The notes below the pieces were generated by a model. That model was not told the DNA's origin. It was given only the letters and a program-made list of their open reading frames with translations, and made no database searches. Shown here piece by piece: positions 7,847 to 36,567 of a stretch of DNA of 64,000 bases; the first letter of the stretch is position 1, and the number at the start of each line of letters is the position of its first letter. The stretch comes from Ancylobacter radicis (GTDB taxonomy: Bacteria; Pseudomonadota; Alphaproteobacteria; Rhizobiales; Xanthobacteraceae). Made by a program: the position numbers and the translations under genes. The stretch covers positions 62,001 through 126,000 of the forward strand of contig NZ_JAHCQH010000004.1 of NCBI RefSeq assembly GCF_018449475.1, written 5' to 3'.

Positions 7847-8425
7847 TCACTTCTTCAGGCGCAGGCCGAGCATCAGCACGGCAAGGCCATTGAAGACGAG
7901 GTCGACGCCGAGGAACAGGCCGAGCACCCAGATCCCGCTCACCGGCCAGCCGGCGACGATCATCACGCCGAGCAGCACGGTCAGCACGGCGGAGGCGGCG
8001 ATCCAGCCCCAATTGGCGGCCGGGCGCATCTGGAAGGCGGCGATGATGCGGAACACGCCGCCGACGATCAGCGCCGCGCCGAGCAGCAGGGTCAGCACCG
8101 CCGCCGCCAGCAGCGGCTCGGCAAAGGCGACCACGCCCGCCGCGACATAGAGCAGGCCGTCGAGCAGCCAGAAGGCGAAGGCGCCCCAGCCCTTGACCTG
8201 GAAGGCATGGAAAATCTGCGCCACGCCGGAAATGGCCAGCACCACGCCGATATAGAGCACCGACACCACCGTGCCGAGCGCGACATTGCCGAGCACGAAG
8301 GCGCCGGCGGCGATCATCAGCAGGCCGAGGGCGACGAACCAGCCCCATTTGGTCCGCAGTTCGCTGAGGTAGCCGGCGAGCGCGCCGCCGGGCGTCGGCG
8401 TCAGGGAGTCAGTCGGAAGTGACAT
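7847..8425 (-). CDS. HdeD-family membrane protein (DUF308)
   Basis: This 192-residue protein has six predicted membrane helices in three hairpins. The repeated GLLMIAAGAFVL, GVVLAISGVAQIFHAF and GAALIVGGVFRIIAAFQMR segments define the HdeD/DUF308 family, members of which are linked to acid and general stress resistance. A GGAAC-N16-CGTT match lies 39-63 bases upstream of the start. This is the first gene of the minus-strand run hdeD-opgC-SGNH-SGNH. Confidence 0.85.
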   Translation of the reverse strand: MSLPTDSLTPTPGGALAGYLSELRTKWGWFVALGLLMIAAGAFVLGNVALGTVVSVLYIGVVLAISGVAQIFHAFQVKGWGAFAFWLLDGLLYVAAGVVAFAEPLLAAAVLTLLLGAALIVGGVFRIIAAFQMRPAANWGWIAASAVLTVLLGVMIVAGWPVSGIWVLGLFLGVDLVFNGLAVLMLGLRLKK

Positions 8426-8463
8426 GATCGGTCCTCATCCATTCGGCGCGCCGGCAGCGCGGT

Positions 8464-8488
8464 AACGCCGTCCGGCCTCCGGGGTTCC
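8464..8488 (-). promoter_or_regulatory. EcfG-type general stress promoter
   Basis: On the minus strand GGAAC (8488-8484) is followed after exactly 16 bases by CGTT (8467-8464). This equals the EcfG sigma factor consensus of the alphaproteobacterial general stress response. The geometry puts transcription start about 30 bases ahead of the hdeD ATG. Confidence 0.65.
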
Positions 8489-8584
8489 ATCGACTCGTCC
8501 GGGGACGAGTGCCCCATGGTATAGTCGCGCCCATCTCAGCGGTAACGCCGCTTCGCACGTCCGTATTCTGACTTAGGAGCCAGG

Positions 8585-9289
8585 ATGGCCGCAGAATCCG
8601 ACCCTTTGACGGTGCCCGCCTTCGCCGTCGACCTGTTCGGTGCCCCCTCGGAGATTCCCGCGCGGCGGATCAAGGCCCGGCTCGCCCGCACCTTGGTCGC
8701 CGATGGCCGGGGCTTTCTCACCCGCGACGTGCCGGCGCTGGCCGTGACGCTGGAGGGCATCGCCGGGGACCGCCATCACGGCGTCGCCCGGCCGGCGGAT
8801 TCGCGCGTGCCCTGGTATCCGCGCGGCACGCCGATCCGCAATTCCCGCCAGCTTACGCTGGTGTCGCCGGAGGAACTCGCCGAGATCGCCCGCCGCCTTG
8901 CCATTCCCGAGCTGCGGCCGGAATGGCTCGGCGCCAATCTGGTGATCGAGGGGCTGGCCCGCCTCACCCGGATCCCGGTCGGCACGCGGCTGCATCTGCC
9001 CGGCGGCGCGGCGCTGGTGGTGGAAGGCGAGAACGCGCCCTGCCGTCACGCCGGCAAAGCTGTGGCCCAGGGGCTGGCGGTGGCGCAGGGGCTCGCGGAG
9101 AGGGGGCTGCTGGCCGCGTCCGGCCGGGCGGGGCCGTCCTCGGGCGAGGAGAAGCCGCTGGAGACCGCCTTTGTCGGCGCGGCGCGCGGGCTGCGCGGCC
9201 TCGTCGCCTGGGTCGAGCGCGCGGGCGAGATCGCCGCCGGCAGCGAGATCACCGTGAAGGTGCCGGCGCAGCGTTTCTGGGAGCCGTGA
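8585..9289 (+). CDS. MOSC domain protein
   Basis: This 234-residue protein has the MOSC core: LEGIAGDRHHG (57-66), RQLTLVSPEEL (88-98), NLVIEGL (118-124) and the cysteine motif NAPCRHAG (150-157, Cys153). MOSC domains bind molybdenum-sulfur intermediates in molybdenum cofactor sulfuration or in N-hydroxylated substrate reduction. No N-terminal beta-barrel domain is present, so this is a stand-alone MOSC protein. A TAGGAG ribosome-binding site precedes the ATG. It ends at a strong bidirectional terminator. Confidence 0.88.
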   Translation: MAAESDPLTVPAFAVDLFGAPSEIPARRIKARLARTLVADGRGFLTRDVPALAVTLEGIAGDRHHGVARPADSRVPWYPRGTPIRNSRQLTLVSPEELAEIARRLAIPELRPEWLGANLVIEGLARLTRIPVGTRLHLPGGAALVVEGENAPCRHAGKAVAQGLAVAQGLAERGLLAASGRAGPSSGEEKPLETAFVGAARGLRGLVAWVERAGEIAAGSEITVKVPAQRFWEP

Positions 9290-31855: not shown

Positions 31856-32026
31856 TCAGCACTGGCCGATATTCGGAATGCAGGCGCCGACGCAGTTGCC
31901 GAACAGGCAGGCGCCGACACAGCATTTTCCGGGGCCGCAGCAATCCGAGGGCTGCAGGCCGGCGCTCAGGTCTCGCGCGGCGGTGGTGTGCCGCGCCACG
32001 GGGAGGGACTGGGAGGGAAGTCGCAT
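31856..32026 (-). CDS. Cys-rich precursor-like peptide C
   Basis: This 56-residue peptide is preceded by an excellent ribosome-binding site (AAAGGAAA, 32033-32040). Residues 1-28 contain no Cys; residues 29-56 hold eight (positions 29, 30, 35, 36, 40, 45, 49, 56), half of them in CC or CxxxC patterns with Gly. The leader starts MRLPSQSLPVAR, matching peptides A and B at Met1, Lys/Arg2, Leu/Met3, Pro4, Gln6 and Arg12. This leader-core layout is that of a ribosomal peptide precursor or a small metal-binding or disulfide-rich peptide. Function is unknown. Confidence 0.7.
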   Translation of the reverse strand: MRLPSQSLPVARHTTAARDLSAGLQPSDCCGPGKCCVGACLFGNCVGACIPNIGQC

Positions 32027-32074
32027 AGTCGCTTTCCTTTCAAGGTCGCTGGCCCGGGAGGCTCGGTGGCTGGT

Positions 32075-32114
32075 GCCGGCATACGCCGGCGAGACGCCGC
32101 TCCCGCAGCGGCGT
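32075..32114 (-). other. Two consecutive hairpins between peptide genes
   Basis: GCCGGC-ATAC-GCCGGC (32075-32090) and ACGCCGCT-CCCGC-AGCGGCGT (32094-32114) are perfect inverted repeats separated by three bases. They lie immediately after the stop of peptide B and before the ribosome-binding site of peptide C. No T-tract follows, so they are more likely RNA stability or processing structures than a full terminator. Confidence 0.6.
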
Positions 32115-32120
32115 GTTCGA

Positions 32121-32333
32121 TCAGAGGCACTCGATGCAGTCGCTCATGCCGAGCGCCGCGAAGCACTGGATGCAGGCCCCCGGACCGCCGGCACAGGCCG
32201 CGACGCATGCCGCCACGGCGGCGGCGCAGATGACGTTCTCGGGAAATCCGCAACCGGCGGGATGCACCGCGCCATTGAACGGCGCGAAGCTCGGGCTGCG
32301 AAGAATGGCGGGGCTCTGGATGGGCATTTTCAT
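32121..32333 (-). CDS. Cys-rich precursor-like peptide B
   Basis: This 70-residue peptide has AGGA nine bases before the ATG. There is no Cys in residues 1-27, then eight (28, 36, 43, 47, 54, 57, 66, 69), partly in CxxxxxxCxxxC and CxxC spacing within an Ala-rich, amphipathic stretch (AAAVAACVAACAGG). The leader MKMPIQSPAILR matches those of peptides A and C. The Ala/Gly/Cys-rich core recalls halocin C8-like and other Cys-rich antimicrobial peptides, but that is only resemblance. It is the third gene from the protease. Confidence 0.7.
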   Translation of the reverse strand: MKMPIQSPAILRSPSFAPFNGAVHPAGCGFPENVICAAAVAACVAACAGGPGACIQCFAALGMSDCIECL

Positions 32334-32396
32334 GATGATGTTCCTCGTGCTCGGGGTGTGGGCGTCCGCGCCCTGTCGACAGGGCGCAGACAGGGA

Positions 32397-32639
32397 TCAG
32401 AGGCGGCAGTGCTGGCTGCACAGAATGCGGCAGGTCTCCCGCATCGGCTTGGGAAGTTCGCTGCAGGCCGCATGGCAGCGGACGCAGTCGGAAAGCGTCA
32501 TGCCGAGGCGTATCTGCAGCGGCTGCGTTGAGGGCCCGCGCGGTCGCGGCGGGACCTGCGGCGGCAGGCGCATCAGGCTCGCCACGGGCGCGGGTGCGGC
32601 GGGCTTGCGCCGGGAAGCTCGCGGGCGCTTTTCCGCCAT
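32397..32639 (-). CDS. Cys-rich precursor-like peptide A
   Basis: Starting at 32639, two bases after the protease stop, the peptide has 80 residues. An internal ATG at 32573 would give 58 residues beginning MRLPPQVPPRPR, which aligns with the starts of peptides B and C. The Arg/Pro/Ala-rich front contains no Cys; six Cys follow near the end (52, 55, 59, 70, 74, 78 of the long form), spaced CxxCxxxC, then a gap of ten residues, then CxxxCxxxC. The spacing also recalls small copper- or zinc-binding helical proteins, so metal binding is an alternative to a matured peptide. Confidence 0.68.
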   Translation of the reverse strand: MAEKRPRASRRKPAAPAPVASLMRLPPQVPPRPRGPSTQPLQIRLGMTLSDCVRCHAACSELPKPMRETCRILCSQHCRL

Positions 32640-32641
32640 GG

Positions 32642-34549
32642 CTAGACTCTCCGCGCCCAACTGCGCACGGTGCCCACCGTCACCGGCACGACATCGCTGA
32701 CATCGACGGTGAAGCGGTAGATACGGCTCGCGACATTGGTGTTGTCGGGATTGAAGAAGGCGATCTCGACGTCGTAGCAGTCGGAATCGGGCCGGCAGAC
32801 CGGGCTTTTCTTGACCATGATCGAGTCGAGGTCGAGCTGCTGGCGCGTCGTGCTCTGGAGCACCGAGGCGATCTGGCTCGCATTGGTGGCCGAGTAGTTG
32901 AGGGCGCGCTCCTCGCCGGTGATGCCCAAATTGCGCAGGTCATAATAGACGCGGCTGAGGAAGTTGGTCAGTCCGGCGGAAAAGCGGTCATAGGTGTCCT
33001 GATCCGTCGCCGCCATCGGTTGCATCCCGAGAATCGCATCAATTATCGCTTGCGGATTCCAGCAGTAGATGCCGCGAATGGCCGGCACGATGACCGGTAC
33101 CGTTTGCCCCGACTGCAGCCTCGCCGTGCCGCTGATCACGCCGGGAATGGAGACGATCTCCGCGCCCTCGTGGATCTGCGCCTTGAAGGCGTCGCGCAGC
33201 ATCTTGTAACCGGTATCGCCAAAGGCACCGACCGGGTGGATCGCGTAGATCGGCGTCGCGTCGAGATTGAGCGTCCAGATCACCGACGCGGCGTCGTAGG
33301 GCTTGGCATCGAGATGGCCGAGCCAATGATCCGGGTGAAGGGGATTGTTGGCCTCGCCTGCCATCGCCTGCATGAACGAATCGCGCCGGGCTTCCGAACC
33401 GAAATCATAGCCGACCCGCCCGAGCGCATAGACGAGCTGTGGTCGGGCGGGCGCTTGACCCTTGCCGCCACAGCCGCATCCGCAGCCGCCGCCTTCGGCT
33501 TTTTTCTTGCCCCCGCACCCGCATCCGCAATCGGAGGGTGTCACCGTGGCCTGTTCCGGGCCGGGGCTGGCATCGGTCGCCGAGGGCTCGGGCGCCGGCT
33601 CGCCCGATGCCATGATGCGGGCAGAGGCGAGTGGCCGGGGCGCGGTGTCCCGGATCGTGGCGTCGGCGATCGGCACGTGCAGGCTATCGGACATGGCGCA
33701 TCCCCCTTGAATCCTTGCGGTGGCTCCGATGATGTCGAGACGGCCGGCGAGAAAGCGCGCGCAGTCGGCGGCGCTTTCGTCCGGGCACGGAATGGCGGTC
33801 TCAAGCAGCGCCGCGCGGATCGCATGCGGGTCAGGCGCATGTCCGCAGGCTATCTGCAGGGCGGCGAGCCGGGCGGCCTGGCCGGCGACATGGGGCGCGG
33901 CATAGCTCGTGCCGCTGCGCCGCGCCGTGCCGCCACCGGCGCGGGCTCCGAGGATCTCCTGGCCCGGCGCGAGCAGGCCCTGCGTCCGGTAAAGGGCACC
34001 CCAATTGCTCGAGGCCAGCGGCGCCCCGTCCGTGCCGAGAGCGCCGACCGCGAGCACGGAGGGGACCGCTGCCGGAACATGCAGGCACGCGCACCCGTCA
34101 TTGCCCGCCGCCGCGATGATGAGCACGTTGCGCTCGGCACAACGGGCGATGGCCTGCGCGAGCACGGGATCGGGCGCGCCGGAGGGCGAGAGCTGCCCTC
34201 CGCTTATGTTGATGAAGTGCGCACCGTTTTCCACAGCCACCAGGATCGCCCTGGCGAGATCGAGCTGGGAGGCGGCGAGCCGGTCTCCATCCCCGGTGAA
34301 GATGGGAATGATGAGCCCGCGGCAGGCCGGAATCAGGCCGGCCACCTCGCTGCCGATCTGCCCGAACAGCAGGCTCGCCACATGCGTCCCGTGCAGCGTG
34401 GCTGCCGAACTGTCGAGAGGCTCGGGCTGGCCAAGCGGCAGTTCTATCTGCGCTCCGCGGAAGCAGGCGTGATCCAGGTCGACGGGGCCGTCCAGTACAG
34501 CGACCGTGACCTGCGTCTGTCCCTGCTGACCGGCGGCCGTGATGTGCAT
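32642..34549 (-). CDS. PatA/PatG-like subtilisin (S8) protease with Cys-Gly linker
   Basis: This 635-residue protein has a subtilase domain (about 10-285) with triad Asp20 (VAVLDG), His53 (HGTHVASLLFG) and Ser215 (SGTSYAAPHVAG), plus oxyanion Asn150 (AAAGND). There is no signal peptide, so it acts in the cytoplasm. A Pro/Ala-rich linker follows, containing CGCGCGG (341-347) and a second CGCGCGG (356-362). The C-terminal domain (about 370-635) resembles the domain that follows the protease in PatA/PatG cyanobactin maturation enzymes. It is the first gene of a four-gene run with three Cys-rich peptides, its likely substrates. Confidence 0.85.
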   Translation of the reverse strand: MHITAAGQQGQTQVTVAVLDGPVDLDHACFRGAQIELPLGQPEPLDSSAATLHGTHVASLLFGQIGSEVAGLIPACRGLIIPIFTGDGDRLAASQLDLARAILVAVENGAHFINISGGQLSPSGAPDPVLAQAIARCAERNVLIIAAAGNDGCACLHVPAAVPSVLAVGALGTDGAPLASSNWGALYRTQGLLAPGQEILGARAGGGTARRSGTSYAAPHVAGQAARLAALQIACGHAPDPHAIRAALLETAIPCPDESAADCARFLAGRLDIIGATARIQGGCAMSDSLHVPIADATIRDTAPRPLASARIMASGEPAPEPSATDASPGPEQATVTPSDCGCGCGGKKKAEGGGCGCGCGGKGQAPARPQLVYALGRVGYDFGSEARRDSFMQAMAGEANNPLHPDHWLGHLDAKPYDAASVIWTLNLDATPIYAIHPVGAFGDTGYKMLRDAFKAQIHEGAEIVSIPGVISGTARLQSGQTVPVIVPAIRGIYCWNPQAIIDAILGMQPMAATDQDTYDRFSAGLTNFLSRVYYDLRNLGITGEERALNYSATNASQIASVLQSTTRQQLDLDSIMVKKSPVCRPDSDCYDVEIAFFNPDNTNVASRIYRFTVDVSDVVPVTVGTVRSWARRV

Positions 34550-34761: not shown

Positions 34762-36567
<1,806 letters not shown>

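Follow-up and report, generated by a model that had tools for sequence, protein, structure and literature searches.

A Probable PatA-Only Maturation Unit for Cys-Rich Peptides in Ancylobacter radicis

Results

A PatA-Type Protease Followed by Three Small Genes

The window analyzed here is a stretch of 64,000 nucleotides from the genome of Ancylobacter radicis (contig NZ_JAHCQH010000004.1, positions 62,001 to 126,000 of the forward strand), in which a subtilase gene is followed on the same strand by three small genes, A, B, and C. We propose that the protease and the three small genes form a PatA-only maturation unit, in which a cyanobactin-type leader would be removed from each small protein and linear, probably disulfide-rich peptides would be freed, and we give this reading a probability of roughly 0.78. 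A preliminary description made from the DNA letters had seen in this locus a candidate peptide-maturation system; leader-bearing open reading frames (ORFs) in relatives, conserved reading frames and a genome without YcaO now support it.

The protease (32642..34549, minus strand) is 635 residues long and has the intact triad previously read from the sequence, with Asp20, His53, and Ser215 all in place. A Pfam scan recovered the domains Peptidase_S8 (about residues 12–251), PatG_D (372–459), and PatG_C (521–630), and the protein scored 656 bits against the NCBIfam model TIGR03895 (“PatA/PatG family cyanobactin maturation protease”), whose cut-off is 421. Its closest PDB sequences were 4h6v (294 bits), 3zxx, 3zxy, and 4h6w (286 bits; “N-terminal cyanobactin protease”), followed at lower scores by 4uvq (203 bits) and 4h6x (157 bits), both named “thiazoline oxidase/subtilisin-like protease.” We take 4h6v and 4h6x to represent the protease domain of PatA and the macrocyclase of PatG, respectively, and 4uvq to represent the DUF of PatG. 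The spacing between Asp and His is 33 residues, compared with 35 in the first protease of a Gloeothece cyanobactin cluster. Because of this score ranking and this spacing, the window protease is, as judged from sequence comparison, of PatA type and not of PatG type, which narrows the earlier label “PatA/PatG-like” while leaving the family assignment as it was.

The small genes B (32121..32333, minus strand; 70 residues, 8 Cys, core predicted helical) and C (31856..32026, minus strand; 56 residues, 8 Cys, core predicted to be a beta hairpin) were found at the coordinates first given for them. The start of A had been left between 32573, giving 58 residues, and a position 2 bases past the protease stop. 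The latter is the most likely one (32397..32639, minus strand; 80 residues, 6 Cys), because the orthologues of A in Aquibium ELW1220 (L037), Mesorhizobium YM1C-6-2 (L038), and Mesorhizobium LHD-90 (L039) have no Met ahead of the leader motif and because GGAGAG precedes 32639. The long basic N-terminus is common to all of them. A purine-rich stretch could be seen by eye upstream of each start of A, B, and C; the short start of A does have a Met, with no such stretch seen upstream. The first Cys is residue 28 in B and 29 in C, in agreement with the 27–29 Cys-free residues followed by 6–8 Cys that had been noted for all three peptides, and residue 52 in A when the long start is used. In a search of the A. 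radicis genome that scored 150 of 507 candidates with a leader profile not modeling the long start of A, only C (1.4e-14) and B (1.2e-12) stood out, the next of the seven matches having an E value of 0.036.

A Leader of the Cyanobactin-Precursor Type

Comparison of the loci yielded a shared leader motif, PxQxxPVxR. All on the minus strand, its copies in the window are LPPQVPPRPR in A (residues 25–34, 32538..32567; 28.8 bits with the matrix described below, A being itself a training member), MPIQSPAILR in B (residues 3–12, 32298..32327; from the sequence and the matrix), and LPSQSLPVAR in C (residues 3–12, 31991..32020), which contains an exact PxxxxPVxR. The motif KKNxxPxxxxPVxR was used to find cyanobactin precursors in Microcystis (PMC3428304; here and below, papers are cited from the parts available to us). 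Since PxQxxPVxR contains the published PxxxxPVxR, the leader appears to be of the cyanobactin-precursor type. The shared leader proposed at the outset as M[RK][LM]PxQ with Arg at position 12 thus holds, amended to a longer motif that had already been published in part. Exact PxxxxPVxR is present in 40 of 67 distinct precursors, C among them, which we curated with regular expressions, the matrix and by eye, PatB and a type starting with MDMPRQ included. In an NCBIfam scan of ten precursors, four had a model from cyanobactin clusters as their sole match (TIGR04446 twice, TIGR04220 twice), with E values of 0.042–0.16 and scores far below the cut-off.

A leader matrix of 11 columns was built from 13 leaders of the window and L037–L039, and was applied to 19 held-out loci, i.e., the 26 oriented loci minus the four training loci, L045, L049 (broken), and L073 (truncated). 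With a threshold of at least 15 bits, it matched 34 of the 322 open frames located within 1.5 kb behind the protease on the same strand. Outside this zone, 8 of 4535 frames were matched, and in 28 control loci of other S8 proteases, which had shorter flanks, 2 of 1839. Two of the eight matches found elsewhere resemble real precursors (L071, 19.4 bits; L075, 16.8 bits). Per locus, a leader match was obtained in 17 of the 19 held-out loci at 15 bits, in 14 at 17 bits and in 12 at 20 bits, these loci not being independent: six of them (L078–L083) are related to the training loci, and the Streptomyces loci to one another. Small leader ORFs behind related proteases, as the preliminary description would have them, are thus recovered by the matrix in 17 loci, and in the two without a matrix match (L043 and L057) the leader was recognized by eye only (MRIPNQSIGQIR, MNLPFQCQAVDR).

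A Candidate Junction between Leader and Core

Between leader and core, we observed a short element that resembles, at the sequence level, the junction cut by PatA, whose published site consensus (RSII-type, for recognition sequence II) is G(L/V)E(A/P)S (PMC10885120). The candidate junctions of the window, again on the minus strand, are GLQPS in C (residues 23–27, 31946..31960), which fits the strict pattern G[LVI]x[APQ][SAD] and precedes a core reading DCC...IGQC; AVHPA in B (residues 22–26, 32256..32270), which fits the relaxed pattern [GA][LVIM]x[APQ][SADN] only and precedes a core that starts with GC; and GMTLS in A (residues 46–50, 32490..32504), read from the sequence and the weakest of the three. 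Elsewhere, the element takes the form GVEPS (B of L038), GIKPS (Gloeocapsa), GITPS (Nostoc), or GVEAS and GVEAD (Streptomyces). The strict pattern was found in 34 of the 67 curated precursors, compared with a mean of 3.0 in 1000 shuffles (standard deviation 1.7, maximum 8), and the relaxed pattern in 43 of 67, compared with a mean of 7.7 (standard deviation 2.5, maximum 16). In AlphaFold models, the predicted local distance difference test (pLDDT) stayed below 50 through residue 25 of C, within its candidate junction, and through residue 22 of B, where its candidate junction starts, and the folded parts behind were a short helix with two strands in C and three helices in B.

Co-occurrence With the Protease and Coding Constraint

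Among 297 genomes of the family of Mesorhizobium YM1C-6-2, apparently the set scanned for the protease and in part the source of rows of the profiles, a B-type profile matched all 12 protease-positive genomes (E ≤ 4e-6) and 1 of the 285 protease-negative ones, the latter at a noise-level 9.3e-4 with a partial match lacking the leader start, about 20 first-look candidates being scored per genome. The corresponding figures for a C-type profile were 8 of 12 (E < 1e-27) and 1 of 285 (9.9e-4). In the window's own family, one genome (G034, contig C30, locus L049) carries a decayed PatA-type protease, interrupted by a stop and with substitutions of both the catalytic His and the catalytic Ser; no leader ORF was found behind it.

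The proportion of nonsynonymous differences (pN) was lower than that of synonymous differences (pS) in 36/36 orthologue pairs for C, 45/45 for B and 35/36 for A, the last being weakly constrained (mean pN 0.44 vs pS 0.59) and having lost one Cys in L078. The frames of A, B, and C are therefore conserved in relatives under codon constraint, the opposite of the frame loss that would have spoken against them. Mean pN in the core compared with the leader was 0.13 vs 0.38 for C, 0.25 vs 0.37 for B and 0.43 vs 0.44 for A. Core diversity sits between paralogues and between lineages, which is the opposite of a hypervariable core among orthologues. The initial picture of a conserved leader with a variable core is thus valid for paralogues and fails for orthologues, in which the cores of B and C are more conserved than their leaders.

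Similar Loci in Other Proteobacteria, Cyanobacteria and Streptomyces

A scan of genome contigs recovered, in addition to L037–L039, a locus in Trinickia fusca (L040) and a remote S8 protein (L041). In L037–L040, Cys-rich ORFs with a leader lie immediately behind the protease, and L037–L039 have orthologues of A, B, and C. The protease itself is scattered. TIGR03895 was matched above the cut-off in 1 of 61 relatives (the own genome only) and in 0 of 29 genomes of the same genus. Full-length matches were obtained in 2 of 385 genomes of the class (the own genome and G307), in 2 of 398 of the phylum (the own genome and G746, the latter with the same coordinates as L038), in 2 of 249 of the family of Trinickia, one being Trinickia itself, and in 12 of 297 of the family of Mesorhizobium YM1C-6-2, including the genomes of L037–L039.

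The plasmid search returned 174 records, mostly short S8 matches; H7 (a further Streptomyces xanthophaeus record that scored identically to H6) and the partial match L074 were left out of the precursor analysis. Stand-alone PatA proteins were found on plasmids of Acaryochloris (L043) and Gloeocapsa (L044), and long PatA-like proteins on Streptomyces plasmids (L046, L047, L070, and L071). Other plasmid loci were the canonical cyanobactin cluster of Gloeothece (L045) and a truncated protein (L073). Plasmid searches with the C-type peptide of a relative and with the Gloeocapsa precursor gave zero matches and the own record only, respectively. Overall, the association of a PatA-type protease with precursors bearing the leader and junction recurs in further proteobacteria as well as on plasmids of cyanobacteria and of Streptomyces, where the usual enzymes of cyclic-peptide assembly are apparently absent.

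Several of these loci have features of their own. Each of the four Streptomyces plasmid proteases lies near a regulator with a BTAD domain, followed by small ORFs with a leader like [LM]xMPxQxPP[IV]DR (L046, 10779–11952; L047, 10728–11575; L070, 8713–9699; L071, 5116–5304), often with a GVEA junction and mostly with short Cys-free cores; those of L070 are near-identical tandem copies. Behind the PatA-type protease of G307 (L048), there are two precursors on the minus strand (8432–8608 and 8193–8351) with Cys-free, helix-like cores rich in Gly, Ala, and Leu. A third type of small ORF, MDMPRQxKPQPR..., with a conserved C-terminus and a single Cys, is located downstream of the protease, at about +770 to +2520, in L075, L076, and L077. 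A CAP-domain protein is encoded directly ahead of the PatA-type protease on the Gloeocapsa plasmid (L044, 7269–7859) and on a Nostoc plasmid (L072, 7228–7473). The linker between the S8 domain and the DUF of the window protease (residues 341–362) has two Cys/Gly-rich stretches, CGCGCGGKKK at 341 and CGCGCGGKG at 356, which possibly bind metal; similar stretches are present in the proteases of L038 and L039.

Cys Content and Nature of the Cores

In 45 precursors, 4 or more Cys lie beyond the first 11 leader residues, and their number was even in 44. Many of these precursors are related to one another, and we guess that they represent about a dozen independent types of core. Such even numbers fit disulfide pairing. 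The other 22 of the 67 precursors have fewer than 4 Cys behind the leader. No structural relative of the cores emerged: Foldseek searches gave no match at E ≤ 0.001, and PDB profile searches with B and C nothing significant, with very weak hits to Ado1 and bidentatide for C (E 2.3 and 2.5) and to acanthaporin for B (E 1.0). The B orthologue of L038 matched the acanthaporin model of Pfam at E 0.037, which is not significant.

Genome Context

A whole-genome search found no YcaO match in the A. radicis genome, nor did YcaO turn up in Aquibium ELW1220 or Mesorhizobium YM1C-6-2; Mesorhizobium LHD-90 and Trinickia have two and one, respectively, on contigs other than that of the locus. The own genome has no second TIGR03895 protease, and hence no PatG. 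The eight neighbors scanned with Pfam (28.1–38.0 kb) were lepA, two proteins with a metallo-beta-lactamase fold, a GGDEF-EAL protein, DUF2283, DUF1508, a PRC-barrel protein and one protein without a match. Among these eight, there was no transporter, no secretion gene and no enzyme for ribosomally synthesized and post-translationally modified peptides (RiPPs), lanthionine and radical-SAM enzymes having not been searched for in the whole genome. The lepA gene (34762..36567, plus strand), which adjoins the protease divergently here and in 9 of the 26 loci in all, is thought to be chromosomal context and not part of the system. We also looked for a fixed partner gene by clustering the flanking ORFs of at least 110 residues, and obtained only chromosomal context, reverse-strand shadows and, within Streptomyces, the BTAD regulator. 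The earlier qualification “protease-only” thus stands as far as YcaO in the own genome, the eight neighbors and shared genes of at least 110 residues are concerned, the neighbor scan covering 28.1–38.0 kb and not the full 30 kb first claimed.

A phage origin was considered and rejected: the protease query (P0001) had no relative in viral contigs, and phages gave only partial subtilase matches (five records, none covering at least 80% of the query). The adjacency of lepA in 9 of 26 loci makes a shared chromosomal position likelier than a phage origin, despite the presence of the protease in 1 of 61 relatives.

Discussion

A Proposed Minimal Processing Pathway and Its Rivals

We suggest that each small gene encodes a precursor in which a PatA-like junction (G-[LVI]-x-[PA]-S) connects a disordered leader of the cyanobactin type (PxQxxPVxR) to a Cys-rich core. 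By cutting past this junction, the PatA-type subtilase would release linear cores of roughly 29 residues for C, 44 for B, and 30 for A. Their 6 or 8 Cys would most likely pair as three to four disulfides after the peptides have left the reducing cytoplasm. General machinery would take care of export and folding, and neither heterocyclization nor macrocyclization would take place. The unit would thereby operate in the manner of the step of cyanobactin maturation in which the leader is removed. We infer from sequence comparisons the cleavage, the cut position, the disulfides, the export and the role of the peptides; leader removal by a lone PatA-type protease is the best-supported mechanism, and for the fate of the cores disulfides formed after export are the likeliest, metal binding being the main rival.

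Several observations weigh against this scenario. The figures for the 67 curated precursors are not blind. The exact published PatA consensus occurs in just 2 of them, and 33 of 67 miss the strict junction pattern, including A and B of the window, A missing the relaxed pattern as well; A and B also depart from PxxxxPVxR, with PR and AI where PV is expected. In 3 of the 45 Cys-rich precursors, there is an extra Cys inside the leader, so that 4 of 45 have an odd and 41 an even total, and the cores of G307 and Streptomyces are Cys-free or Cys-poor, often short and, by eye, amphipathic. No Pfam or NCBIfam model matched A, B, or C (NCBIfam up to E 1). Confidence in the AlphaFold models, made with four sequences each, is modest (mean pLDDT 62 and 66). 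Absences in the genome profile searches are incomplete, and the B-type match of G1345 holds a stop codon. On the Nostoc plasmid (L072), a leader-bearing precursor stands beside an S8 protein without the Ser stretch. Finally, neither a transporter nor a disulfide enzyme could be linked to the locus.

The most serious competitor, to which we would give a clear minority share, accepts the processing but has the cores remain reduced in the cytoplasm and bind metal through their thiols, in the manner of metallothioneins or metallophores. No obvious signal peptide could be read on the protease or on the precursors and no secretion gene was found among the eight neighbors; CxxC and CC spacings are present in the cores; and the cores of B and C are strongly conserved among orthologues, as expected for a defined ligand site. 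However, 44 of 45 precursors have an even number of Cys past the leader, which fits pairing, no known metal-peptide family was matched in Pfam or NCBIfam, and no gene of at least 110 residues is common across lineages as a metal partner. It is improbable that the small proteins are inhibitors, chaperones or regulators docked to the protease by their N-terminus, the core not being released. Tight linkage and co-occurrence would look identical in that case, and PatB, which is described as non-essential (PMC4663559), begins with a similar motif, but the enrichment of the junction ahead of the cores, the match to a published precursor leader and PatA site, and the wholly different cores behind one leader argue for precursors.

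Still less credit goes to a split pathway, in which enzymes encoded elsewhere would heterocyclize or otherwise modify the peptides as in cyanobactins or thiazole/oxazole-modified microcins (TOMMs). Cys-rich cores behind a cyanobactin leader speak for it, as do the YcaO genes on other contigs of Mesorhizobium LHD-90 and Trinickia; yet YcaO was not found in the own genome nor in Aquibium ELW1220 or Mesorhizobium YM1C-6-2, both of which have orthologues of A, B, and C, in a genome-wide search that covered YcaO only. That the small genes are chance frames in GC-rich DNA beside an unrelated protease is hardly conceivable: frames are often open here (90 ORFs of at least 40 residues over 28–38 kb), but those of A, B, and C are conserved across genera with pN < pS, co-occur with the protease, and belong to a leader family enriched relative to the S8 control loci.

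A Possible Broader Class of Lone PatA-Type Proteases

The Cys-free or Cys-poor cores of G307 and Streptomyces suggest that the common element of these loci is the combination of leader, junction and protease, and not Cys. One could imagine, at slightly less than even odds, a broader class distributed among proteobacteria, cyanobacteria, and actinobacteria. In it, unmodified cores of any kind would be freed by a single PatA-type protease acting alone with one leader/junction code, the cores being disulfide-rich mini-proteins in certain lineages and short amphipathic helices in others. The macrocyclic cyanobactins would then be a derived branch and PatB a surviving leader-bearing member.

In the literature searched, PatA is one of the two proteases of cyclic-peptide assembly. 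A PatA-only unit with Cys-rich substrates, if confirmed, would be a simple two-component maturation system, and the combination of TIGR03895, leader and junction would provide a searchable signature for precursor genes. It would also hint at what PatB and the conserved DUF of PatA, the latter retained in these small loci, might do, and would open access to Cys-rich bacterial peptides that are genetically encoded.

Comparison With Known Systems

Our literature search, which covered few subscription journals or preprints, found no description of this system. With disulfide-rich mini-proteins such as Ado1, bidentatide, and acanthaporin, the window peptides share their small size and high Cys content, the profile matches being non-significant. 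Class III lanthipeptide pathways have a lanthionine synthetase, and none was seen among the eight scanned neighbors. In these pathways, an AmyP-type S8 protease removes the leader at (T/S/A)EVE (PMC10885120); the window unit is similar in that an S8 protease would cut the leader at a short motif, but both the protease family and the site differ.

The closest system is that of the cyanobactins (PatA/PatG/PatE; TIGR03895, TIGR04446), with which the locus shares a PatA-type protease with the same C-terminal DUF, several precursors per locus, the PxxxxPVxR leader and a candidate junction resembling G(L/V)E(A/P)S. It differs by its single TIGR03895 protease, by the lack of YcaO in the own genome, by window cores of about 29–44 residues with 6–8 Cys and by a host outside cyanobacteria, the only group in which cyanobactin clusters had been identified according to a 2015 review (PMC4663559). 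The same review states that the G protease is always present in cyanobactin clusters and YcaO only in the heterocyclized types. A, B, and C end with ...HCRL, ...IECL, and ...IGQC, respectively, and none has the C-terminal RSIII (recognition sequence III) site (AYDG, FAGD). Since the G protease and this C-terminal site, both standard for the class, are absent, we do not consider the locus as a cyanobactin pathway; a canonical cyanobactin label is rejected on account of the one TIGR03895 protease, the missing C-terminal site and the lack of YcaO.

PatB and PatC are both described as conserved across almost all cyanobactin clusters and as non-essential, with no function assigned to either (PMC4663559). 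In Gloeothece, PatB (L045:12496-12711) begins with MRLPKLAPPVKR, close to the precursor leader motif; it has 2 Cys and no clear junction, and a plasmid search with it returned its own record only. Residues 1–12 of the L038 B orthologue align to positions 1–12 of the PatB/AcyB/McaB model TIGR04220 (13.5 bits, E 0.042, cut-off 55). From this one sequence and the sub-threshold profile matches, we consider as a lead only that PatB may be a leader-bearing relative of the precursors described here.

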